Of a stretch of DNA of 64,000 nt, positions 42,361-63,970 are shown piece by piece. The notes under the pieces are model-generated. The model was given only the letters and a program-made list of their open reading frames with translations, ran no database searches and was not told the DNA's origin. The stretch is taken from contig NZ_JACWUN010000004.1 in NCBI RefSeq assembly GCF_014773365.1, positions 62,001-126,000 of the forward strand, given 5' to 3'. The number at the start of each line of letters is the position of its first letter. Within the stretch, counting starts at the first letter, position 1. This stretch comes from Pelovirga terrestris. Its GTDB lineage: Bacteria; Desulfobacterota; Desulfuromonadia; Desulfuromonadales; Geopsychrobacteraceae. The position numbers and the translations under genes were made by a program.

Positions 42361-42732
42361 TTTAGCATTGTTTATATCAACTTATGCAATGCCTTCTCCG
42401 CCAGTAAGCAATTTTCCCCGCAATCACGATAAATTTAAAATTTAATCTGATGGTCACTGGTTCGATAGAGCACGTTCCACCAAGTTGAACGCTAACCCAC
42501 GCCAGTCGAAATAGCAGGCAGGTGATCTCGTTTTATAAATCATCTTGCATTAATTTTGAGGGTTGAAATTGGTCTAGGTGAGAAGTTACTGCAAACCCTG
42601 ACTTGTTGGACTTTTCTGTTGCACCTGCTGCGCAATTATCACTTATGTGCATTAACAGCTGCTTGACTATGACAAATCAATGTATTAACTTTGTACCTAC
42701 ATGGTAGTCACTAGACAGGGAGGTCCGGACTC
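42361..42732. other. Intergenic region between AbiE and AbrB/Doc modules
   Basis: A non-coding 372 bp between divergent operons. From 42589 it is part of the long direct repeat shared with 63599 onward. A TTGACT (42663-42668) followed after 17 bp by TAACTT is a weak promoter candidate conserved in both copies. CTAC-ATG-GTAG at 42699-42709 is an operator-like palindrome not conserved in the second copy. Confidence 0.45.
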
Positions 42733-42990
42733 ATGATCAAAACGTTGACCAAACATGGAAACAGTTTGGCACTGGTGATTGAAAAGCCTGTTTTGGAATT
42801 GTTAGGGGTCAATGCGGAAACACCCTTCGATATTTCCACCGATGGACAGGTTCTCATTCTTGCGCCAGTCAGGGATATCAACCGTCAAGATTCATTCAGG
42901 GCGGCTTTAGATAAAGTCAATGCCCGGTATCCAAAAGCGTTGAAGAAATTGTCGGAGTAAGGCATTGGAACCAAATTTTCTTACATTGCT
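42589..42990 (+). repeat. Long direct repeat, left copy (AbrB/doc module)
   Basis: From CTGCAAACCCTGACTTGTTG to at least 42990 this matches 63599-64000 with a constant offset of 21,010 and no gaps. By eye about 20 substitutions occur in 402 bp, mostly in the promoter region. It covers the promoter, the whole AbrB antitoxin gene and the first codons of doc. The match runs to the window edge, so its true right end is unknown. Confidence 0.92.
42733..42960 (+). CDS. AbrB/MazE-like antitoxin partnered with Doc
   Basis: A 75-residue AbrB-fold protein (IKTLTKHGNSLALVIEKPVLELLGV, ETPFDISTDGQVLILAPV) with GGGAGG upstream of the ATG. It sits 4 bp before a Doc toxin, so it takes the place usually held by Phd. 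A second copy at 63743 differs by one residue (Leu12 to Met). Confidence 0.9.
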   Translation: MIKTLTKHGNSLALVIEKPVLELLGVNAETPFDISTDGQVLILAPVRDINRQDSFRAALDKVNARYPKALKKLSE

Positions 42991-43354
42991 GGAAGTTTTG
43001 GAGATTCACCAAAACCAGACAAGTCTATATGGAGGTGATCCGGGGATCAGAGATATGGGTCTGCTAAAATCCGCTATCGGGATGTCTTCCGCTACGTATG
43101 GGGGAGAATTTCTTCATACCGATATCTTTGAAATGGCGGCAGCTGATCTGTTTCATCTCGTAAAAAATCACCCTTTTGTGGATGGCAACAAACGTGCTGG
43201 AGCTGTATCCGCTCTTGTTTTTCTTCTTCTGAACGGTTTTGAACTTGATGTACCTGAAGACGACTTTGCAGATCTTGTTTTGGCTGTTGTACAAGGAAAA
43301 ATCGACAAGGCTCAGGTGGCTGTCTTTTTGAAACAATACTCAAAGGAAATTTGA
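42965..43354 (+). CDS. doc: Doc family (Fic-fold) toxin
   Basis: A 129-residue death-on-curing kinase. The active-site loop HPFVDGNKRAGAVSALVFLLLNG matches H-x-F-x-[DN]-[AG]-N-K-R, with the N-terminal GGDPGIRDMGLLKSAI also typical. The start is TTG 42965. Doc phosphorylates EF-Tu in the studied case. The motif is intact. Confidence 0.93.
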   Translation: MEPNFLTLLEVLEIHQNQTSLYGGDPGIRDMGLLKSAIGMSSATYGGEFLHTDIFEMAAADLFHLVKNHPFVDGNKRAGAVSALVFLLLNGFELDVPEDDFADLVLAVVQGKIDKAQVAVFLKQYSKEI

Positions 43355-51317: not shown

Positions 51318-51609
51318 ATATCGCCTGGCTCCGGCGGCAGAGCGTGATCTGGAATCGATCTGGACCTATACGGTTAGACAATGGGGTATCGAGCAGGCAG
51401 ATCGTTACATCGATTTCCTGACGGCGGCGTTTGCCGAATTGGCTGAATCACCCGAAACAGCGCCAAGCTGCAAGCACATCCGGACAGGCTATCGCCGGTG
51501 GGGCGTTGAGAGACATATGATCTACTTCCGAATAACCGACTACGGAATCGCCATTGTTCGGGTATTGCACGGCCGCATGGAGGCTTTGCGAGCATTAAAA
51601 GGGGTCTGA
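51310..51609 (+). CDS. parE: ParE family toxin
   Basis: A 99-residue ParE/RelE-fold toxin (EYRLAPAAERDLESIWTYTVRQWGIEQADRYIDFL, ending GIAIVRVLHGRMEALRALKG). Start ATG 51310 within the parD stop region. Its stop codon lies within the hairpin of a T-rich terminator. ParE proteins poison DNA gyrase. Confidence 0.93.
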   Translation: MAEYRLAPAAERDLESIWTYTVRQWGIEQADRYIDFLTAAFAELAESPETAPSCKHIRTGYRRWGVERHMIYFRITDYGIAIVRVLHGRMEALRALKGV

Positions 51610-52002
51610 CCCTTTTTTATTCAAGAAAACTGGCGCCGCCCATTTTCTAAAATGTGTTTCTTTTTCAGAATTGACCCGAAAACCAGCGGCAATAATTCCT
51701 TGCAAATTATAATGTTCTACTTCCCGGCTAACTTCCCGATTCCCCTCGGTTTGAACTATTGGGAATTTCCCAATAGTTGCCGATTCTTCCAGTTCCCCGG
51801 TTTTATAGATGTTTTTGAGGTGTTCATTGATGGTGGAAACATCGACCCCAAAGAGTTCCGCCATTCTTTTCTGGGTAAGCCAGACGGTTTCGTTATGAAA
51901 GATGATTTCTACTTTTACATCCCCATTACGCGCGGCATACAACAGGAATTCGGTTAATTCGTCCCGTGTGGAAAGCTGTTTTTCATTTTTTTCCTTACTC
52001 AT
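51595..52002 (-). pseudogene. Truncated RhuM family protein
   Basis: The first ~120 of about 330 residues expected for a RhuM-like protein: EFLLYAARNGDVKVEIIFHNETVWLTQKRMAELFGVDVSTINEHLKNIY, then EHYNLQGIIAAGFRVNS and HFRKWA. After HFRKWA it runs into unrelated sequence (KKGSDPF) shared with the parE terminator. RhuM genes often ride with restriction-modification loci, in line with the methyltransferase remnant just upstream. Confidence 0.8.
51597..51618 (+). terminator. Terminator of parDE
   Basis: AAAAGGGGTC pairs with GACCCTTTTT around one T and leads into six T, directly at the parE stop. The GGGTCTGACCC core is a common element in bacterial intergenic repeats. Confidence 0.7.
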
Positions 52003-52311: not shown

Positions 52312-53691
52312 CTAGGGTTGTCGTTCTGAAGAGTTGTGACCCTCTGCCTCTTGACGAAATTTCTCTGCCACAGATTTTTCAATAGCTTCAACAGTTTGTA
52401 TCAGTCGTGTTGACTCTTGATTTTGCTCTTCATGAAACAGGCTGACATATTCATCAAAGCCGAATGCAGTGACGACCGATTCATTATCAAAGTCCTGTTG
52501 GGTTTTCATTTGCTTGAAAAACAGCAACCCGCAAGGTTTTACTTTCGCATCGAAGCACCCCTTCTGCTTATCCGATACGGTAAAACCAATTTTGTGTCCG
52601 AAAGCCACCAGGTCAGTCAGTATGGAGAAAAGTGCCATACGACGATATTGTGCGCCATCATTTTTCTGATTACGTTTGGCGTCAGCGATCAGATAAATCG
52701 GATCAAGTTTTTGTAGATCGCATCGAAAACAAAGGACAATGTCCGGCTGTTTGCCAGATGCATTGTTGTATTCAACGGCTTTCAATAACTCAATTGATCG
52801 ATCAGTTGCTTTGACTTCCTCGGGAAAACCTTTGCGGATATGGAGTGTCAGACCATTCTTCTTTAAGGTCAAACCCTCACTCAACTTCAAACCCACCTTG
52901 AATATATTTTTTTCTGGACGCCAACCTTGGTCAACGAATGCTTTTGCCAAAGCAAGAGTTGCTATCATTTCTAGCATGTTGTCGGCATTAGTCCTATCGA
53001 TATAGCATCTCTCTGAGTTTGGCTGGTCACTTGATGCAGCGGATTCTTTTTCAAAAAGCTGAACCAGTAATTTACCATCTTTTTCAGGATCAAACTGTTG
53101 CCATAATATTGTCTGCACCTTATCTAGCAAATCAGCAAGTTCTTTCCCCCCATCACATCGACGAAGCAATGACGACATATTGGCATCGTAGGTAATTGCC
53201 AATGGTGAAAAGCGAATGGTTGAGCAGGCGTGATCCATCGCCTTCGATCGTGCAATATAGCGTTCGTGTTTATGGCTCAGACCGGCAAGCTGCTGGCACC
53301 AAAGTAAAGCAATACCAAAAAGTCCCGACAACAGTGGGATGTCCGGCACATGTTCTACCCTGCGGTTTACATAGCATTGGGCCGGGCCGACTAGCTTGGA
53401 AATCTGCGTTCGACCCCAGTCTGTATTGCGGTGCATTCGCGACTCAGTTGTGCGACGAGTCAACGGGCGCGTCAGGTCACGATCAAGAAATTTTTGAATC
53501 AGCTCTTCGGCTTTGATCCGATCCGGATGGTCCAGCAACATCTGCTGGCGAAGAATGTCTACAGCATTGTCATTCAGGTAATCTGCAACCCACGCCAGCA
53601 GAAGCTGGCGATGACCTTCGAAGAATTTCACTGCAAGCCATTTTATGGATAAGAGAATTATTTTTTCTTCAGTTTGATCCAGATTACTCAT
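52312..53691 (-). CDS. PD-(D/E)xK nuclease-like partner of the McrB-like ATPase
   Basis: A 459-residue protein with a helical N-terminal two-thirds and a C-terminal nuclease core: KQPDIVLCFRCDLQKLDPIYLIADAKRN gives the PD and D-x-K pattern of PD-(D/E)xK enzymes. ATG 53691 overlaps the ATPase stop by 8 bp. The arrangement matches McrBC-type systems, with this protein in the McrC position, but I see no clear McrC N-terminal domain. Confidence 0.72.
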   Translation of the reverse strand: MSNLDQTEEKIILLSIKWLAVKFFEGHRQLLLAWVADYLNDNAVDILRQQMLLDHPDRIKAEELIQKFLDRDLTRPLTRRTTESRMHRNTDWGRTQISKLVGPAQCYVNRRVEHVPDIPLLSGLFGIALLWCQQLAGLSHKHERYIARSKAMDHACSTIRFSPLAITYDANMSSLLRRCDGGKELADLLDKVQTILWQQFDPEKDGKLLVQLFEKESAASSDQPNSERCYIDRTNADNMLEMIATLALAKAFVDQGWRPEKNIFKVGLKLSEGLTLKKNGLTLHIRKGFPEEVKATDRSIELLKAVEYNNASGKQPDIVLCFRCDLQKLDPIYLIADAKRNQKNDGAQYRRMALFSILTDLVAFGHKIGFTVSDKQKGCFDAKVKPCGLLFFKQMKTQQDFDNESVVTAFGFDEYVSLFHEEQNQESTRLIQTVEAIEKSVAEKFRQEAEGHNSSERQP

Positions 53692-55687
53692 GACTAGCCT
53701 GGTCAATAATTAATTTTTTAACTTCTTCGTCAAGTTGAGTGTTTCGAAAAAGACGTTCTAGTTCGATTTGCAGAAACTTGCTGATTTTACGACCATCGCA
53801 AATTGCGCGGTAAGGAGCCTCCTGCTTTTCCGGACCCTCTATACGGTAGAATTTGTAATCCTTAAAAGATTCAAGTATGAGCTCAATTGCGTCTTTTAAT
53901 TTTTTCTTATCCTGAAAGCCGGTTAATGCAATTAACTGAGGAAAAACAGATATAGTAAGACCCAATGCCATATAGGAATAAACAACGCAACTTTGTTTTA
54001 CTGAATTCCATGAGTCTTCTTCCATAAGGCTTAAATTTGCATCATTTGGCCCTGTTAGACCTTCTATAATAAAATCTATTACATCAAGAACTTGAGCAAT
54101 TCCTATAACTCTTTCTTTTACTAAATCAAAACCATCAAGCCTATCATTATAGAAAAGACTTTTTATCAAATTGTCTTTATTAAAAATATTATGTCTGATT
54201 ATTTTTTCATTTTTATTTTTTGTTATTTGATAAACTGATCTATTTCCAGATTCTTCTACTGATTTAATCTTATTTTTAGTGTGACCGATGACAATTTCTT
54301 TTGTTTCTTCATGTGATGGTGCCTCTACTCTGATAATGTTGAATCTTCTTTGGAAGGCGTATGATAGCTGATTAAGCCTGGATGCGTCAGCATCGTTCAT
54401 GGTGCCGATAATTCTGAATTTTGACTGAATCGAATATTTGGGGTGATCCTTGTATGCATTATTGGTTTTTCCATAGGATTCAGGAAGAACAACGATAGGT
54501 AATAATTTTTTTTCAGAGCTTTCCTCTTCATTCTCTACTGGTTTTTCGAATGGCAAAATAGCAGGTTGCCCAGCCAGAACGGTGAACAGTTCACCAAAGC
54601 AGCTATCAATATCTGCTCGATTGAGTTCATCAATAATCAACCATTTGTCATCACTGATAGCCCTTAAGAAAAAGCCCTCAGAAAACCTGATGGCAGAACC
54701 TTCTATTGCCGGCATGTACCTGCCGATGAGTTCATCCGTACTCCAGGTAGGTGAAGCTGTTGCAATAATAGGCTCCTGAATGCCGGCAGCCCTTGCCAAC
54801 TCCTTCGCCAAGGTTGTCTTCCCACACCCCGGCGGACCGGTAAAAATCACGTGCTTTCCAGCGTTAAGCGAAGCGCAGGCTGTTTCCAGTATTTGCCAGG
54901 GGAGCAGAATGTTGCGCTCCTTTAGTCTTCTCTGGACATCACTGGTTTCCAAATTAACAGGTCGTTTTGGAATGAAATCTTTGTAGGAGGGGAAGCCGTT
55001 GTTATCTTCTTCATATGCTTCGCTGATAATCATCTCGCGTGCAGCTAAAGCAGCACAGAATAAACCCCACTCGTTATCGTCATTCAGTTTATCATTGACA
55101 ATCAAATCTGGTACGGTGATAGACCACTCGATATCTGTGCTTGAAAACACAGGCCAATATTTACCATAAACATCGATCTCTTCACTGCCTTGGACCTTCT
55201 CAGGGAACAGCCTTGAGGCGATAAATGCTATGTCAGGGAAGTTGTTTAGTCTTGGCAAGCGACACCTAGTTGACAATAGCGATTTATCTTCATTTAAATA
55301 ATCTTCATCGTCTTCTATCTTGTCTATTCTTATTGTTGTATATTTTTCATTTATTTTCATTCTCAATACTATAGTATTTTTATCATCAGAATCTGGAGAT
55401 ACAAAACTTATTTTGCAATCATAGAATTTTTCATGGCAATTGTTAAAATAAATTTTGAATTTACTCCAATTGTTGCCCCTTGACGGCTTTATTGTCTTAA
55501 GATTTATCTTATAATCTTTTTTTTTATCTTTATCTTTATATTTAACTAAGGCTATTTCCTTTTCTATTTCATTTAAGCTTTCAAATGAATTTGAAATTCT
55601 ACTTTTGACTATGCTGGCAATCCTGTCAATCGAATCATCTACTTCCGGTTTTGTCGTTGCAGGTTGGTTGTCCTTATTATGGTTCAC
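53684..55687 (-). CDS. McrB-like AAA+ GTPase/ATPase
   Basis: A 667-residue protein. The N-terminal ~270 residues are AT-rich in coding and Lys/Asp-rich, with no known DNA-reading fold visible. The AAA+ core has Walker A GPPGCGKTT (284-292), the McrB-type Walker B/signature WLIIDELNRADIDSCFGELF (~349) and sensor RIIGTMNDADASRLNQLSYAFQRRF (~425). It likely forms the ring of an McrBC-like restriction system with the nuclease at 52312. Base composition is clearly more AT-rich than the flanks, a sign of transfer. Confidence 0.88.
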   Translation of the reverse strand: MNHNKDNQPATTKPEVDDSIDRIASIVKSRISNSFESLNEIEKEIALVKYKDKDKKKDYKINLKTIKPSRGNNWSKFKIYFNNCHEKFYDCKISFVSPDSDDKNTIVLRMKINEKYTTIRIDKIEDDEDYLNEDKSLLSTRCRLPRLNNFPDIAFIASRLFPEKVQGSEEIDVYGKYWPVFSSTDIEWSITVPDLIVNDKLNDDNEWGLFCAALAAREMIISEAYEEDNNGFPSYKDFIPKRPVNLETSDVQRRLKERNILLPWQILETACASLNAGKHVIFTGPPGCGKTTLAKELARAAGIQEPIIATASPTWSTDELIGRYMPAIEGSAIRFSEGFFLRAISDDKWLIIDELNRADIDSCFGELFTVLAGQPAILPFEKPVENEEESSEKKLLPIVVLPESYGKTNNAYKDHPKYSIQSKFRIIGTMNDADASRLNQLSYAFQRRFNIIRVEAPSHEETKEIVIGHTKNKIKSVEESGNRSVYQITKNKNEKIIRHNIFNKDNLIKSLFYNDRLDGFDLVKERVIGIAQVLDVIDFIIEGLTGPNDANLSLMEEDSWNSVKQSCVVYSYMALGLTISVFPQLIALTGFQDKKKLKDAIELILESFKDYKFYRIEGPEKQEAPYRAICDGRKISKFLQIELERLFRNTQLDEEVKKLIIDQASHE

Positions 55688-56645: not shown

Positions 56646-59600
56646 TCAAAAGATGTCGTCAACAAGCATCACCTCCCCATAGCGAATCCAGTTAATCGCG
56701 ACACCGGCAACGGGCTTATCCGGTCGGAGCTTTGCCAACACCTGCTGATAAAGCCGCAGTTGCGGCAGGTGGTGATAAAGCCGGGTCTGGCGATCATCGG
56801 TGGTATCGGACTTGTGATCGATAATCCACAACCCATCGGGTGTTTCCACCAGCAGATCGATTAAGCCGTTAATGACGCTGCCGTTGATATCGGTTGATAA
56901 CACGGCAACTTCATGACGCAGGGCGTCCGGCGTAAAGGTGGTCATCAGGTATTTATGGAATTGCTCCACCTGGGAACAGATTGCCAGGAATTGATCGTCC
57001 GTCCAGGCATATCCGGTCACCTGCCGGAGTTGGTCGGCATCAGTTATATGCCCCTGAAGCTCAAAACAGCGGTGCAGCAGGGTACCGGCAGTGTTGGCGG
57101 GCAGATCGAGATTGAATTGCAGTGGTGGCGCGTAGGTCTGTACCGATACCGGAACATCAGCGACTTTCTCTTCAGCCTCGATGAGCGATGGGCGAATAGT
57201 CTCCGGGGTCAGATGGCTTGGCAAGTCGGACTTTATCAGTGCCCGGCGACCAATGACCGGCAGCGTATCGCGACTAGGGGCTAGTTCCGATTCAAAGAGC
57301 TCGTGGCGATCCTTACCGGCGCGGATGGCTCGGCAGGGGTAGCTCTGCCCCTGCAGGCTCAGTTGATTCGCTGCCTGGACCATGCCGGTTTTTTCGACCA
57401 GCAGTTCCCAGTAGGTCAGAGAGGTTCTGTCCTTGCCGTTATCGAGATAGCTTGGCCACTCAAGGATTATTTTCTCGCGGGATCGGGTCAGAGCCACATA
57501 CAACAGGCGGGTGGCGGAATCCTTGGCGACGGGCCAAAGGGTCTCCAGCAGGGGTTCGTTCTTTTCCGGTGCCACATACTGGGGGGAGATATCGATCCGT
57601 GCCTTTTGCAGGATCTGATCAAGATCACTGAAATCTTCGTAATTGATATCAAGGCTGGGCAAAGGGTTGAGGATTTCGCTGTCAGTAGCAGCAACAACCA
57701 CAATGGGCCATTCTCTGCCTTTGGAGCGATGCCAGGTGACAAGCTCAATGGCGTCCTCATCCTGAACGCGGTAGGGGGGCTGGGTATTGTCGCGTTCGGC
57801 GCGGGTGCGCAGCCAGGACAAAAAGCTTTTCAGCTCCGTGCCATAGTAGCCGCCGCTGGCCAGGGCATCACGGTTGCCGTTTTCAAATTCCAGAGCTTCA
57901 GCCTGCAAGCGCAGCAGGTTGGCGCGTGCCTGGGGTGCTTCAGGCCAGATAGAAACGGTCGTCAACAGATCAAGGGCAGCCAGGGTTTCTGCCATCACGG
58001 TGGAGACCGACCGACCCGTTGCACCATCACGGACCTGCAGCAATGCTGTGATGGCGGGACTGGCGGGCCATTCCCCCTTGATCATGGTGGTCAGGGCGCT
58101 TTCCAGCGTATCTGTACCCAGCTCCGTTACGGCCAGATACAGGGCGGCATGCCGGTCCGTCGGGTCGGCCACCAGGGACAAGGCGTGGTACGCCAACTGA
58201 ATAATGCGTGATTCAAACCAGCCTTCTTCCCGGGTTCGGGTGCGCAAGCCCACGGATCTTAAGATCTCAGCGTAGGTTGTCAGGCGGCTGTTGCGAGGGC
58301 AGATTACCGCAATATCGCCACCGCGCACGGGGCGCATCTTCTTTGTTATCCGGTCAAAGACCTCACCGCCTTCATCGAGCAGAGCCTTGATGCGGGCAAC
58401 CGTGTGTTCTGCTCTGGTCTGTTGGGTCGCACGGGCAGTGAAATCGATCACCTCCAGGGATGACAGTGAACTTGGAAAATCCGCCTTAGGTTCAAGAGCG
58501 GTATAGTCGCTGCCGAACAGTCCCCTGCCGATAGCGTTGACCCAGGGCATGAGGTTTGGATGGGTGCGCCAGTTTCCGGTTAGGGGGCGACAGGCAGACG
58601 GATTGTTCTTTTGCAGTTCCTCCAGCAGGCGGGCGTCGGCATTCTGAAAGCCCATGATCGCCTGTTTGAGATCCCCGACAATCAGAGTGGGGATCCCGGC
58701 ACGATGAAACATCCACAACAGGGCAAACTGCAACGGGTTGGTATCCTGAAATTCATCAATCACCAGACAATCAATCCGCTCTTTGAGTAAACTCAACACC
58801 GCCGGTTTATCCATGAGCATCTTCAGCGCCTGAGCCAGCATGTCGGTGTAGTCGAGCAGGCCGCGTTCCATTTTGCGCTGGGCATACAGATCAAGGGAAT
58901 CCTGGGCGGTTTGAAGCATGGCGCCGGCATGGTCGCTGGCATCGGTGAGAGGGCCGGGATGATCGAGCAAGCTATCAGCGGCTGAAATCACCTCCTGGAT
59001 CAACCGATCGTAGCCTTCAGGTAAAGGATTCCGCGGAGTAGAGGTCTGCAGCCCACGCAACTGCTGCCAGAGTTTCCAGTCGTTATTGAGATTGAATACA
59101 TTGGCAGCTTGACGCAGCAGGTTGAAGTCGTCCTTGAGCTTTTTCGCGACCCCTTTGGTTTTGCAATAGGCTGACACATCTTCGGGGAATTGCTTGAGCA
59201 CACACTGAACCGCGTGGTGCAGTCTCTGCTGTAACAGGGTGGCGTCACCGGTGGGGCCGTATACGTTCTGGATTCGTGCAATAGCTTGTGCTGCCAAGTG
59301 GTCGTCTTTTTCCAAGCGCCCGATGGAACGCAGCTTGTTCATCAACTCAAGTACCGCACCGCGAAACGCATCCTCCGGGCTGCTGTTGCTATTGAAGTCA
59401 TAGCGATATCCGAAACGCTGCAGATCCTTCATGATCGGGACGGAGTGATTGGTCCCGGAGAGGGCAAGGCGGATCAGAACATTTTCTTCGTCTTCCGTGA
59501 GCAGGCGCGGTGATGGGTTGAGTCCGGCATCAAAGGCAAATTCGCTGAGCAGGCGCAAACCAAAGCCGTGGATCGTGGAGATGTAGGACTGCTGCAGTTG

Positions 59601-59810
59601 CAGGGCATCAAGGGGACGTTTTTTGCCGATCAGCTCCGTCCGGATGCGACCACGCAGTTCGGCGGCGGCCGCTTCGGTAAAGGTCACGGCAATGATGCTG
59701 TCGGGGCGAACCTGCCCATCCACCACCCATTGCGCCAGGGTGGTCTGGATACTGTAGGTTTTTCCGGAACCGGCACCGGCGGGAATGATGGTTAACAGGG
59801 GTAAGGTCAT
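56646..59810 (-). CDS. AddA/RecB-like helicase-nuclease, WYL regulon
   Basis: A 1054-residue UvrD-family helicase with a C-terminal nuclease. Walker A is IPAGAGSGKT (residues 9-18), AVTFTEAAAAELRGRI follows, the helicase DExx box is CLVIDEFQDTNPLQFALL, then VTWHRSKGREWPIVVVAA and YVALTRSREKI. The nuclease motif is GLIDLLVETPDGLWIIDHKSD near the C-terminus, as in AddA. The gene begins one base after the AddB-like stop. It probably forms a dimer with it that resects double-strand ends. Confidence 0.93.
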   Translation of the reverse strand: MTLPLLTIIPAGAGSGKTYSIQTTLAQWVVDGQVRPDSIIAVTFTEAAAAELRGRIRTELIGKKRPLDALQLQQSYISTIHGFGLRLLSEFAFDAGLNPSPRLLTEDEENVLIRLALSGTNHSVPIMKDLQRFGYRYDFNSNSSPEDAFRGAVLELMNKLRSIGRLEKDDHLAAQAIARIQNVYGPTGDATLLQQRLHHAVQCVLKQFPEDVSAYCKTKGVAKKLKDDFNLLRQAANVFNLNNDWKLWQQLRGLQTSTPRNPLPEGYDRLIQEVISAADSLLDHPGPLTDASDHAGAMLQTAQDSLDLYAQRKMERGLLDYTDMLAQALKMLMDKPAVLSLLKERIDCLVIDEFQDTNPLQFALLWMFHRAGIPTLIVGDLKQAIMGFQNADARLLEELQKNNPSACRPLTGNWRTHPNLMPWVNAIGRGLFGSDYTALEPKADFPSSLSSLEVIDFTARATQQTRAEHTVARIKALLDEGGEVFDRITKKMRPVRGGDIAVICPRNSRLTTYAEILRSVGLRTRTREEGWFESRIIQLAYHALSLVADPTDRHAALYLAVTELGTDTLESALTTMIKGEWPASPAITALLQVRDGATGRSVSTVMAETLAALDLLTTVSIWPEAPQARANLLRLQAEALEFENGNRDALASGGYYGTELKSFLSWLRTRAERDNTQPPYRVQDEDAIELVTWHRSKGREWPIVVVAATDSEILNPLPSLDINYEDFSDLDQILQKARIDISPQYVAPEKNEPLLETLWPVAKDSATRLLYVALTRSREKIILEWPSYLDNGKDRTSLTYWELLVEKTGMVQAANQLSLQGQSYPCRAIRAGKDRHELFESELAPSRDTLPVIGRRALIKSDLPSHLTPETIRPSLIEAEEKVADVPVSVQTYAPPLQFNLDLPANTAGTLLHRCFELQGHITDADQLRQVTGYAWTDDQFLAICSQVEQFHKYLMTTFTPDALRHEVAVLSTDINGSVINGLIDLLVETPDGLWIIDHKSDTTDDRQTRLYHHLPQLRLYQQVLAKLRPDKPVAGVAINWIRYGEVMLVDDIF

Positions 59811-59811
59811 G

Positions 59812-62544
59812 TTAATCCTCCTGCCGCGCCGGGTGCATGAACAGGCGAATCAAGGGGCTTCTGTCGAGGGCGTACAAAGGAATGCCGGCGTTTTTGTCGA
59901 ACCATTTTTCATCAGAGGCGCTATTAAGCAGCACCTGGCCTCTTTTTACTTGAGCCAGACGTTCTTTAAGCAACGGCAGAGCGTTAACCGACACATCCGC
60001 ACCCAGTTCTTCGATGTTCCGGATACGACCTGCGGTCCAGCCATCGGTGTCGGCCAAAGCCACCTGGTCATTCATCAGGTAGTACATGGCGCCGATGGGG
60101 CGATCCTGCGCAACCGTGACTTTGGTGCCGTCGGATGAGCGGAAGGTGCCGCTACCAGACTGCAGCATGATCCGATAGAGGGAAGCCTGACTGTCGTAAC
60201 CTTTGTGCATCCGCTCCTTACGCTTTTTACTGGAACTTTTTTTGTAATCAACAACGTAGATCTTGCCGTCGGGCAGCTGCAGCAGCAGATCGGCGCTGCC
60301 ATGGATTGCCTGCGTGTCAAACGTCCCTTTCAGCCATACCTCAACCCCCAGGATGGTCGCCCCCAGGGTGTCAAGAATCTCCCGGAAGCGCATTGCGGCG
60401 GTTGTGATTTCCTTTTCCAGATGGAAGCGCTCAACCTGCCATTCCGGTCGGTTTAAGAAAGGCTTGATGTTAATGATGGTTTGTTTGAGCAATTGCGGCA
60501 CCAGCTGTTCGATATCGACAAGAGAGGACACCGGGATGCCCGGGGCAAACAGCCGTTCAAACACCGCGTGGGCCAGGGTTCCCTTGGCCATGACATCCAG
60601 GGACTCGGGTTCCCAGTCCGGCGGAATCAGGCGCGCCCGATCCAGCAGCCAGGCCAGAGGTGAGGTCATCAGGGTTTCCAGACTACTGGGGGACTGAGCG
60701 CGAATACTACCGTCGCGATTCTTCAGGATGGCAAGCAGATCGATTTGCAACGCGGGATCGGAAATTTCAAGCCCACGTGGTGCTGTGGAACACTCCGTAT
60801 CCGCTATGGCCAGGCCAAAGGCTCGGCTGCGGCCAGCCTCCGTATCAAGGTCGAGGATCAGGTCTTCGGGTTCCTGCACCTGCGGAAACAGTTGTGCCAT
60901 AAAGGCCAGGCTGGAGGAGGGGTAGAGGGCGTTGCCGGCGAGATCAAGGCGGCTTGACAGAAAATGAACACGGGATGTTGTTGCCTGCAACTGCCTGACG
61001 AACAAGCTGCGCAACCGCTCATCACCAGCAACAACAGTATCCAGGTTAAAACCCTGCTGCTTTAGCACTTCCCGGTCAGCGGCAGAAAAAACCGCTGATG
61101 CAGGTGGAGATTGAGGGTAATGGCCATCATTGAACCCAAGGACAAAAAGCTCTGTTACCTCACGCCAGGGTTCCTGATGTTCGTAAAAAACAGCAATCCC
61201 TTCGCGGGTCGGTTCGGCAGCTACCTCTCGTGTCAGTGATTCAGGTGCTGCCTGGCGTAGCATCTCTTCCCACGGTATCTGCTCAGATTCCCGCAACAGA
61301 TCAAGCAGGTCGGCACAGAGCCCCGTTGCTCGCTGGCGGTGAAGTTCATATTCCGGATCAGCGTTTAATTGGGCTGGCAATGCCGTCAGCACTGCGCGTA
61401 AATCGGCAGAGGTAGCGATACCATCACGGATCAGGGTCAACAGTGATCGGCCCAGAGGAGTTGGAGGTTCAACGTCTTTGAGGGTGTAGTCCCCTGCCAT
61501 CAGGGTGTTGGCGACCTCAAAGCCGAAGGATCGCGACCAGGGAAGCAACGCTGATGTCGCAAAGGCGGCCATCGCCATCGTTGGAGCGGGCTTTTTCGCG
61601 GACTGCAGCAGATAAAACACCACCTCTTTGCCCAGATCGCGTTCTGTTTGCTGCTGAACCAAACCGGACAGCGGCAAGCCGGCAGCGCGAAATACTTCGT
61701 TTACCGCACTGGAATAATAGGCATTGTTCGGCAACAACAGCCCGATGGTGTTTGTACCTGAATCCCGCCCGGTACGCAGTGCGGTCTGAATCATGCCGGC
61801 GGCAATTTCAACTTCTTCCAGGGGATCGCGAACCGCCAGCCACTGCAAGGAATCATCCAATTGACCTGTGACAGTCGTTGTTGTGTACAGATGATGATGC
61901 AGCAGACCAAGGGAGGTAGCAGAAACGGGGGGAACGGGTCGCTGAAGGAAGTCCGCGCCGTTGACGGGTTCATTGCCGTCGGCACTGTCATTGTTAAGTC
62001 GGTGGATCAAAGCTCTGATCCAGGGGTCGAGGGATTCCCGTGGCTCAACAGCATACACCTTGATCCGGCGCAAGCTGCGATTCTTATCGGCTTGCAATAC
62101 CCGCTGGACGATAGCCAAATCATCCGGGAGACAGTAATCCATTGCTTGCTGCAACAGGGTCAAATCATCCAGATGCTGCTGCGCTCGTTGCGACAAGGAG
62201 GAGATCGATCGCTGTGAGAATAAACTTTCGGGAGCAGAGCTGCGAATCAGAATATCGAGTTCACGGGAGATGATCGCTCTGGTCTGTTCAGGAGCAACGG
62301 CATAGCTGCCGGACCAGAAGACATCAGTAAGCCGGGGAAGAGTTTCAGTCAGAACCGGTTGCCACTGTGGCTCAGCAGGAGGTATCAGATACGCATCAGC
62401 CGCTGCCTGCAACAGTTCAAGCCAGGTCCCCACCTGCAGATTGAAACCAATCCCCGCCTCAGCGATGCGCCGGCGATAAGCGCGTGCTTCGGCACGATCC
62501 CGGCACAGGATAAAAATTCTGCAATCTGGAAGTAAAGTACCCAT
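59812..62544 (-). CDS. AddB-like PD-(D/E)xK nuclease subunit, WYL regulon
   Basis: A 910-residue protein with the AddB layout: inactivated helicase-like N-terminal domain, central region with ITEL-like WREVTELFVLGFNDGHYPQ, and a C-terminal nuclease (KGTLAHAVFERLFAP, then GSADLLLQLPDGKIYVVDYKKS). Unlike classical AddB, there is no Walker A at the N-terminus (FILCRDRAEARAYRRR instead) and no set of four cysteines for the iron-sulfur staple around the nuclease. It lies one base upstream of the AddA-like gene. Confidence 0.9.
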   Translation of the reverse strand: MGTLLPDCRIFILCRDRAEARAYRRRIAEAGIGFNLQVGTWLELLQAAADAYLIPPAEPQWQPVLTETLPRLTDVFWSGSYAVAPEQTRAIISRELDILIRSSAPESLFSQRSISSLSQRAQQHLDDLTLLQQAMDYCLPDDLAIVQRVLQADKNRSLRRIKVYAVEPRESLDPWIRALIHRLNNDSADGNEPVNGADFLQRPVPPVSATSLGLLHHHLYTTTTVTGQLDDSLQWLAVRDPLEEVEIAAGMIQTALRTGRDSGTNTIGLLLPNNAYYSSAVNEVFRAAGLPLSGLVQQQTERDLGKEVVFYLLQSAKKPAPTMAMAAFATSALLPWSRSFGFEVANTLMAGDYTLKDVEPPTPLGRSLLTLIRDGIATSADLRAVLTALPAQLNADPEYELHRQRATGLCADLLDLLRESEQIPWEEMLRQAAPESLTREVAAEPTREGIAVFYEHQEPWREVTELFVLGFNDGHYPQSPPASAVFSAADREVLKQQGFNLDTVVAGDERLRSLFVRQLQATTSRVHFLSSRLDLAGNALYPSSSLAFMAQLFPQVQEPEDLILDLDTEAGRSRAFGLAIADTECSTAPRGLEISDPALQIDLLAILKNRDGSIRAQSPSSLETLMTSPLAWLLDRARLIPPDWEPESLDVMAKGTLAHAVFERLFAPGIPVSSLVDIEQLVPQLLKQTIINIKPFLNRPEWQVERFHLEKEITTAAMRFREILDTLGATILGVEVWLKGTFDTQAIHGSADLLLQLPDGKIYVVDYKKSSSKKRKERMHKGYDSQASLYRIMLQSGSGTFRSSDGTKVTVAQDRPIGAMYYLMNDQVALADTDGWTAGRIRNIEELGADVSVNALPLLKERLAQVKRGQVLLNSASDEKWFDKNAGIPLYALDRSPLIRLFMHPARQED

Positions 62545-62604: not shown

Positions 62605-63099
62605 CTATATCTCTGAAATGCCTCTTTCCTTCATTTCATCGATTGTCAGCAACTCTTCCGATTCCACAGATCCTGCGTTGACGAAAAGATGGAGATAGTG
62701 AGTGAAATAATTTCTGTGCAGTCCCGAAGGGTAGCCAATGACTTTTCCAGCAGGACACACCAGTGAACCTGTGTACCAACCTGCAAACACCGGGCTTTGG
62801 TCATCAGGAAATAAAATATTTAACAGGCAATCTGGTCTTGATATCTTTCTGTCGGGATACTTTTGCGCCACATATTCTCTGGCTATCTCCAGGTTTATTT
62901 CTTTGGTGACAATGTCCATCAAATAAAGGCGCCCCTCAACAATTTCCCACGATGCTATGTAGCCTCGATAACAACCAGTATGCATATGGCGCAGGCGCAA
63001 TTTCCGGTAGTTTTTATTCAAAAAACTAGAGAGGGGCTCATTATGGAGTTGATGTTCTGTTCCTTGATACAAGAGTTTTTCACTGAGCTGCCTGGTCAT
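62605..63099 (-). CDS. GY[VI]AxW family protein (164 aa), head of the nuclease operon
   Basis: A 164-residue protein. RGYIASWEIVEGRLYLMDIVTKE and FAGWYTGSLVCPAGKVIGYPSG define the same small-protein family as 47582-47899, here in a longer form with a C-terminal segment ending KERGISEI. It is 60 bp upstream of the AddB-like gene and has the palindrome 71 bp before its start, so it probably leads the nuclease operon. Function unknown. Confidence 0.82.
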   Translation of the reverse strand: MTRQLSEKLLYQGTEHQLHNEPLSSFLNKNYRKLRLRHMHTGCYRGYIASWEIVEGRLYLMDIVTKEINLEIAREYVAQKYPDRKISRPDCLLNILFPDDQSPVFAGWYTGSLVCPAGKVIGYPSGLHRNYFTHYLHLFVNAGSVESEELLTIDEMKERGISEI

Positions 63100-63169: not shown

Positions 63170-63188
63170 CACGACAAATGGTGTCGCT
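63170..63188. promoter_or_regulatory. WYL-regulon palindrome 7 (before the nuclease operon)
   Basis: CACGACA-aatgg-TGTCGCT, 71 bp upstream of the operon's first start codon. Confidence 0.72.
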
Positions 63189-63260: not shown

Positions 63261-63300
63261 AAAAACCCGCCATTTCGGAGAGACCGAACAACATGGCGGG
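63261..63300 (-). terminator. Intrinsic terminator downstream of the GEMM riboswitch
   Basis: On the minus strand CCCGCCAT pairs with ATGGCGGG around an inner TTCGG/CCGAA stem, followed by five T. It starts 26 nt after the riboswitch. The opposite strand also has an A/T-rich run, so it may work both ways. Confidence 0.8.
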
Positions 63301-63325
63301 ATATATTTTTTTTCTCAATTTTTAT

Positions 63326-63404
63326 AATCATAACAACCCCACTGACCCTTTAGGTCTGGTAGCTTTGCGTCGCCAGATTACTCTGGTTTTGCCTTTTTAT
63401 GATT
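63326..63404 (-). ncRNA. GEMM-I cyclic-dinucleotide riboswitch
   Basis: Minus strand, 5' to 3': P1 arm AATCATAA, then GGCAAAACC, P2 hairpin CCAGA-GTAA-TCTGG with a GNRA tetraloop, the invariant GACGCAAAGC, P3 (CTACCAGACC-TAAA-GGGTCAGTGG) with the CCTAA tetraloop receptor, GGTTG, and the closing P1 arm TTATGATT, which pairs perfectly over 8 bp. This is the complete core of the c-di-GMP-I/GEMM-I class. Variants of this class in Geobacter-type bacteria bind 3',3'-cGAMP; specificity cannot be settled here. An intrinsic terminator follows, as expected for transcriptional control. Confidence 0.87.
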
Positions 63405-63742
63405 TTTGCTGAACTGCTGCGCTGCGTGCTTGACGCTATTCTACATACGATTTCTGACAAATATCTGAATGGGAAAACATGATGACCATTTTTTTAACTT
63501 TTTTTTCGGAAGAGGGTGACGGAAGTTAGTCAGGTCGATTGTCCGATAAGTTATCTTACAGCATTTTTGCTGATCAAGGTTCTCAATTTTGAAATGTCCT
63601 GCAAACCCTGACTTGTTGGACATTCATGTTGCCCCTGCTGCGCAATTATCACTTATGTGCAATAACAGCTGCTTGACTATGACAAATCAATGTATTAACA
63701 TTGTGGCTACATAGTCATTACTAGACAGGGAGGTGCGGACTC

Positions 63743-63970
63743 ATGATCAAAACGTTGACCAAGCATGGAAACAGTATGGCACTGGTGATTGAAAAGCCTG
63801 TTTTGGAATTGTTAGGGGTCAATGCGGAAACACCCTTCGATATTTCCACCGATGGACAGGTTCTCATTCTTGCGCCAGTCAGGGATATCAACCGTCAAGA
63901 TTCATTCAGGGCAGCTTTAGATAAAGTCAATGCCCGGTATCCAAAAGCGCTGAAGAAATTGTCGGAGTAG
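63743..63970 (+). CDS. AbrB/MazE-like antitoxin partnered with Doc (second copy)
   Basis: A 75-residue AbrB-fold antitoxin differing from the copy at 42733 only at residue 12 (Met for Leu). Same GGGAGG ribosome site. The two antitoxins should cross-neutralise both Doc toxins. It marks the right boundary of the 21-kb segment. Confidence 0.9.
   Translation: MIKTLTKHGNSMALVIEKPVLELLGVNAETPFDISTDGQVLILAPVRDINRQDSFRAALDKVNARYPKALKKLSE

Follow-up and report, generated by a model that had tools for sequence, protein, structure and literature searches.

A GEMM-I aptamer with U92 and an apparently uncoupled terminator upstream of a divergent AddAB-like operon in Pelovirga terrestris

Does a cyclic dinucleotide riboswitch control a nuclease operon in Pelovirga terrestris? 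The question is raised by a stretch of 64,000 nucleotides of contig NZ_JACWUN010000004.1, referred to here as the window, for which an initial annotation described a GEMM-I riboswitch followed by a terminator at the head of an AddAB-like operon. The elements on which the answer depends, all of them on the minus strand, are the following:

63329-63403, minus strand: GEMM-I (c-di-GMP-I class) aptamer, RF01051 full-model match
63397-63404, minus strand: P1 5' strand AAUCAUAA, perfect complement of 63326-63333
63393, minus strand: G20 (Vc2 numbering), the c-di-GMP type and not the cGAMP-type A20, from the covariance match and the alignment of relatives
63373-63386, minus strand: P2 hairpin CCAGA-GUAA-UCUGG, from the covariance match and the fold
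63366, minus strand: conserved A47, from the covariance match and the alignment of relatives
63335-63363, minus strand: P3 region with a short ACCUAAAGGGU arm and the 3' strand GUGGGGUU, from the covariance match and the fold
63333, minus strand: U92, replacing the ligand-pairing C92 in the RF01051 alignment
63326-63333, minus strand: P1 3' strand UUAUGAUU, beginning with U92 and U93; relatives have CCGAA... at the same place
63261-63300, minus strand: intrinsic terminator CCCGCCAU...AUGGCGGG-UUUUU, holding inside it GUUCGGU, an antiterminator half of the C92 type that lacks its partner
62605-63099, minus strand: putative ORF of 164 aa, with distant plasmid homologues beside ZorD and PDC-M16 genes
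59812-62544, minus strand: AddB-like PD-(D/E)XK nuclease of 910 aa, from a domain match
56646-59810, minus strand: AddA-like UvrD helicase-nuclease of 1054 aa, from a domain match

The aptamer is a genuine GEMM-I RNA with an intrinsic terminator behind it. The Rfam covariance search that had been proposed as a check assigns 63403-63329 on the minus strand to c-di-GMP-I (RF01051) over the full model, with 55.6 bits (E 3.6e-8) against a gathering score of 35 bits, and this is the sole Rfam match within the window. P1, the GUAA-capped P2, GACGCAAAGC and P3 lie where the annotation had placed them, and the core GCAAA, GACGCAAAG with A47, the GNRA loop of P2 and P3 are all present. P1 consists of 8 perfect pairs (63404-63397 with 63333-63326, AAUCAUAA/UUAUGAUU), and the aptamer fold is equalled or beaten by just 2 of 200 dinucleotide shuffles (z -2.6). 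Across 44 genomes of the family no orthologous leader was found, the matches being the aptamer core (about 35-65 bp) of other GEMM-I copies and a duplicated toxin-antitoxin leader.

The ligand of GEMM-I RNAs is gripped by residues 20, 47 and 92 (Vc2 numbering), A47 being stacked between the ligand bases and C92 pairing the second of them. In the window U replaces each of the family-consensus residues C92 and C93 (63333 and 63332), which leaves a G20/A47/U92 pocket ("GAU"), and among the strongly conserved positions of RF01051 these two alone are broken. Aligned with 30 relatives, the window aptamer keeps every invariant column, while U93 is unique to its row. The changes outside residue 92, U93 among them, are rescued by the re-made P1; when the 3' strand is shuffled, an 8-bp helix arises in no more than 0.34% of cases, and in the predicted fold U92 is paired with A16 inside P1. 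The combination of G20 and C92 that pairs both guanines is reduced to G20, the A20 of cGAMP riboswitches is a G at 63393, and of the U20/A47/U92 set of c-di-GMP-I-UAU (RF03168) A47 and U92 are present with G20 replacing U20. In the Geobacter cGAMP switch the C92 equivalent, C75, forms a Watson-Crick pair with the ligand (PMC6274999, PMC9262584). Vc2 mutants engineered at G20 and at C92 show weaker c-di-GMP binding (PMC9049102), C92U Vc2 has been crystallised (PMC10671752), and an engineered G20A/C92U variant binds c-di-AMP (PMC7288161).

The terminator is, as had been claimed, strong and on the same strand: its stem (63300-63293 with 63273-63266), followed by TTTTT (63265-63261), lies 25 nt past P1 and folds better than 200 of 200 dinucleotide shuffles (z -4.8). 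Its relation to the aptamer was analysed against 80 GEMM-I loci of the host's class, obtained from 277 genomes searched, by comparing the strand starting at residue 90 with the 5' arm of the terminator. In canonical elements UGCCGAAGA, on strand 90-98, is complementary to UCUUCGGCA of the terminator arm over up to 9 bp. Among the motif-bearing elements, the terminator base opposite C92 is G in 29 cases and A in 0, and that opposite U92 is A in 7 and G in 1 (Fisher p 8e-7, uncorrected for common ancestry and with the motif absent in about half of the elements); one of the 7 U92-A cases, L189, was read by hand, as the hairpin finder had picked another stem. Given this covariation, the most likely role of the pairing is that of an antiterminator, and in other genomes U92 is a genuine state with co-adapted platforms.

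The window departs from this arrangement. Its strand from residue 90 forms 4 bp with its own terminator, as compared with up to 9 bp in relatives, and the aptamer fold does not compete with the terminator; were the strand a canonical GCCGAAC, it would form 7 bp with the retained GUUCGGU, a reading of the old platform that depends on the short motif UUCGG, to which many relatives have no detectable match. We prefer this strand-specific comparison to a duplex test in which the aptamer is set against the 5' arm of the terminator, a weak test that counts P2 too and in which 39% of shuffles do as well as the real pairing. An alternative pairing between that arm and the aptamer was rejected, since shuffles do as well. 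In folds of the growing transcript, from 84 nt on, the aptamer is at each tested length either the minimum-energy structure or no more than 0.6 kcal/mol above it, and in the longer transcripts it stands side by side with the terminator. The expression platform is apparently uncoupled from the aptamer, its antiterminator pairing lost.

The account that we favour, with moderate confidence, is that of a GEMM-I switch diverged from a G20/C92 ancestor, uncoupled and probably orphaned, that terminates its own transcript. The ancestor would have been an ordinary riboswitch with a P1 3' strand of about GCCGAAC that became GUUAUGA. This would have swapped C92 for U and broken the antiterminator pairing with the terminator, while a new 8-bp helix preserved P1. 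The aptamer would now fold independently of the terminator, so that transcripts started upstream would most likely stop at 63261 at any ligand level, and the nuclease operon would have a separate start of its own, farther downstream. The orphan switch offered in the initial annotation as an alternative fits better than operon control. It should be noted that the conserved core and the intact, re-made P1 argue against dead sequence, and that U92 alone is not proof of lost function, since there are natural elements that combine it with a matched platform. Coupling of a non-canonical kind, e.g. through Rho, translation or pausing, may also operate.

Concerning the operon itself, the start of the 164-aa ORF, at 63099, lies 161 bp past the terminator, and its protein has no homologue in the 44 family genomes. 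Distant relatives on plasmids have ZorD as a neighbour in Nitrosospira and the candidate defence genes PDC-M16A/B in Frigidibacter, hence the protein is probably defence-associated; an orphan, it may represent a small defence-associated family. The two large proteins carry the expected domains in divergent form, falling far below the curated NCBIfam cut-offs for both AddA (182 vs 708 bits) and AddB (26 vs 904 bits). AddB-like genes are found in 13 of the 277 genomes of the class, and a GEMM-I element within 1.5 kb accompanies 0 of the 12 other loci; a conserved riboswitch-nuclease linkage was rejected on this count. The three other GEMM-I copies of the host genome all keep C92, two of them with G20 (C1 and C5) and one with A20 (C33), and are followed by genes for an exported repeat protein, a GGDEF protein and a sensor kinase. 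Exported proteins, GGDEF proteins and sensor kinases are the usual GEMM targets. Since the other AddB-like loci lack GEMM-I within 1.5 kb and the genome's other riboswitches precede such targets, the nuclease operon looks like an acquired module that lies downstream of the aptamer by chance.

No sigma-70-like site for operon or aptamer was found on the minus strand, promoters of other types being possible. The palindrome described at 63170 and ascribed to a second promoter could not be reproduced either, there being no inverted repeat with arms of at least 6 nt at that place.

A working c-di-GMP riboswitch whose conditional termination controls the operon would account for the good covariance score, the terminator at its usual distance and the common direction of the genes, but seems quite unlikely in view of the U at position 92, where engineered Vc2 mutants, like those at G20, bind c-di-GMP less well, of the absent antiterminator pairing and of the lack of a conserved link with AddB-like genes. 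Ligand control of the operon in general is not supported, because the pocket is altered, the platform is uncoupled, none of the 12 AddB-like relatives has a GEMM-I element within 1.5 kb and no homologue of the next gene was found in the family. From the original idea of a riboswitch heading the operon, the identity of aptamer and terminator is retained and the switching is not.

Further genes were noted in the surroundings. A Doc-type toxin with its antidote occurs twice, about 20 kb apart and nearly identical (window 63599-63970 and 42589-42960; Doc partners at L014:11976-12365 and window 42965-43354). Both modules share a 144-bp leader (91%), a related one is present in genome G002 (86%), and the module, which seemingly moved recently, ends about 195 bp from the aptamer. 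At 53684-55687 lies a McrB-like AAA protein gene with a weak match to the candidate defence family PDC-M26A, and at 51595-52002 a short RhuM-family (PDC-S05) gene containing the N-terminal part of the family alone; the region looks like a defence island.

The GAU pocket occurs elsewhere in nature. Scanning 84,980 species genomes for the U92 pattern gave 96 stretches, many of which were Bacillaceae C92 elements with the pattern misplaced and were removed by alignment to the covariance model, leaving 43 sequences with G20/A47/U92, made up of the window element, about 41 others that are genuine and 1 low-scoring, doubtful one (L094). Their hosts include Geobacterales, other Desulfuromonadia, Nitrospirota, Gemmatimonadota, Alicyclobacillus and Alteromonas, among others, and among the genes behind them are those for HD-GYP-like (HD_5), MCP, hybrid kinase, RHS and subtilase proteins, a set that fits either messenger. 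For A20/U92, one convincing element was seen (L075). In the host's class, U92 is present in about 21 of ~150 listed G20 elements and in 0 of ~62 A20 elements (p 6e-4, from hand counts uncorrected for ancestry), and one Geobacteraceae genome (E14_bin-1988) holds A20/C92 and G20/U92 paralogs together. The natural GAU elements, L178-L198 among them, come from several phyla, and residue 92 covaries with the terminator loop base. Another unusual pocket, A20 with A92 (CUGACGAA), is found in a GEMM-I element of genome G003 (L012:1501-1575).

By pairing logic, we infer that G20/U92 would prefer a ligand with one G and one A, i.e. 3',3'-cGAMP, which makes the GAU elements candidate sensors of an altered ligand, possibly that one. 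The host genome encodes a GGDEF protein with a receiver domain and the sequence GHLAGS...GGDEF (L148, G000:C5:84005-84469), and a Ser at the selectivity position together with GGDEF is the Hypr signature of cGAMP synthases (PMC6456294). The A20 GEMM-I element at C33 precedes the sensor kinase. As a Hypr-type GGDEF and an A20 element are both present, cGAMP signalling is likely in this host, which probably makes cGAMP.

These data bear on a further explanation, that the window copy is a working switch of changed specificity in which G20 reads the guanine, U92 pairs the adenine and 3',3'-cGAMP is sensed. The roughly 41 other natural GAU elements, the absence of U92 from the A20 elements of the class, the likely cGAMP signalling of the host and the crystallised C92U Vc2 are consistent with it; we regard it as rather unlikely here, since the window copy also lacks C93 and platform coupling and its U92 is paired to A16 in the predicted fold. 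A broader proposal, which we hold as tentative and doubtful, is that GAU elements form a separate natural specificity group, reading guanine via G20 and adenine via U92 as a second route to 3',3'-cGAMP sensing, of which the window element would be a diverged member before a defence-associated nuclease operon. The strong terminator and the folded aptamer with its kept core would also suit a decoy or trans-acting short RNA, in which the terminated transcript of ~140 nt would bind a ligand or itself be the product; having no relative at the window locus, this is very improbable. The diverged, uncoupled switch is the reading that we retain.

Hence, a good covariance score can conceal an altered ligand pocket and a broken switch, and the presence of a riboswitch ahead of a defence operon is no ground for assuming regulation. 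GAU GEMM-I elements, found in several phyla and with residue 92 covarying with the terminator, are a set of RNAs open to direct testing, and their ligand may be a cyclic dinucleotide different from c-di-GMP.

Compared with known systems, the window RNA resembles c-di-GMP-I (GEMM-I, RF01051) in its fold, conserved core, G20 and A47 and downstream terminator, but differs in U92/U93 for C92/C93, in lacking the antiterminator pairing and in the nuclease operon downstream. With c-di-GMP-I-UAU (RF03168) it shares U92 and A47, but that class has a U20/A47/U92 consensus with C93, while the window RNA carries G20 and U93 and finds its best-scoring model in RF01051. The cGAMP-sensing GEMM-I RNAs of the A20 type (e.g. 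Gs1761, pilM), of which the host genome has one A20/C92 copy, have the same fold, but owe their specificity to A20 with C92 kept, and not to G20 with U92 as found here. The natural GAU elements of Geobacterales, Nitrospirota, Gemmatimonadota and others have the same three pocket residues; unlike the window copy, nearly all of them keep C93 and several have a U92-matched terminator, the associated genes including HD-GYP, MCP and kinases.
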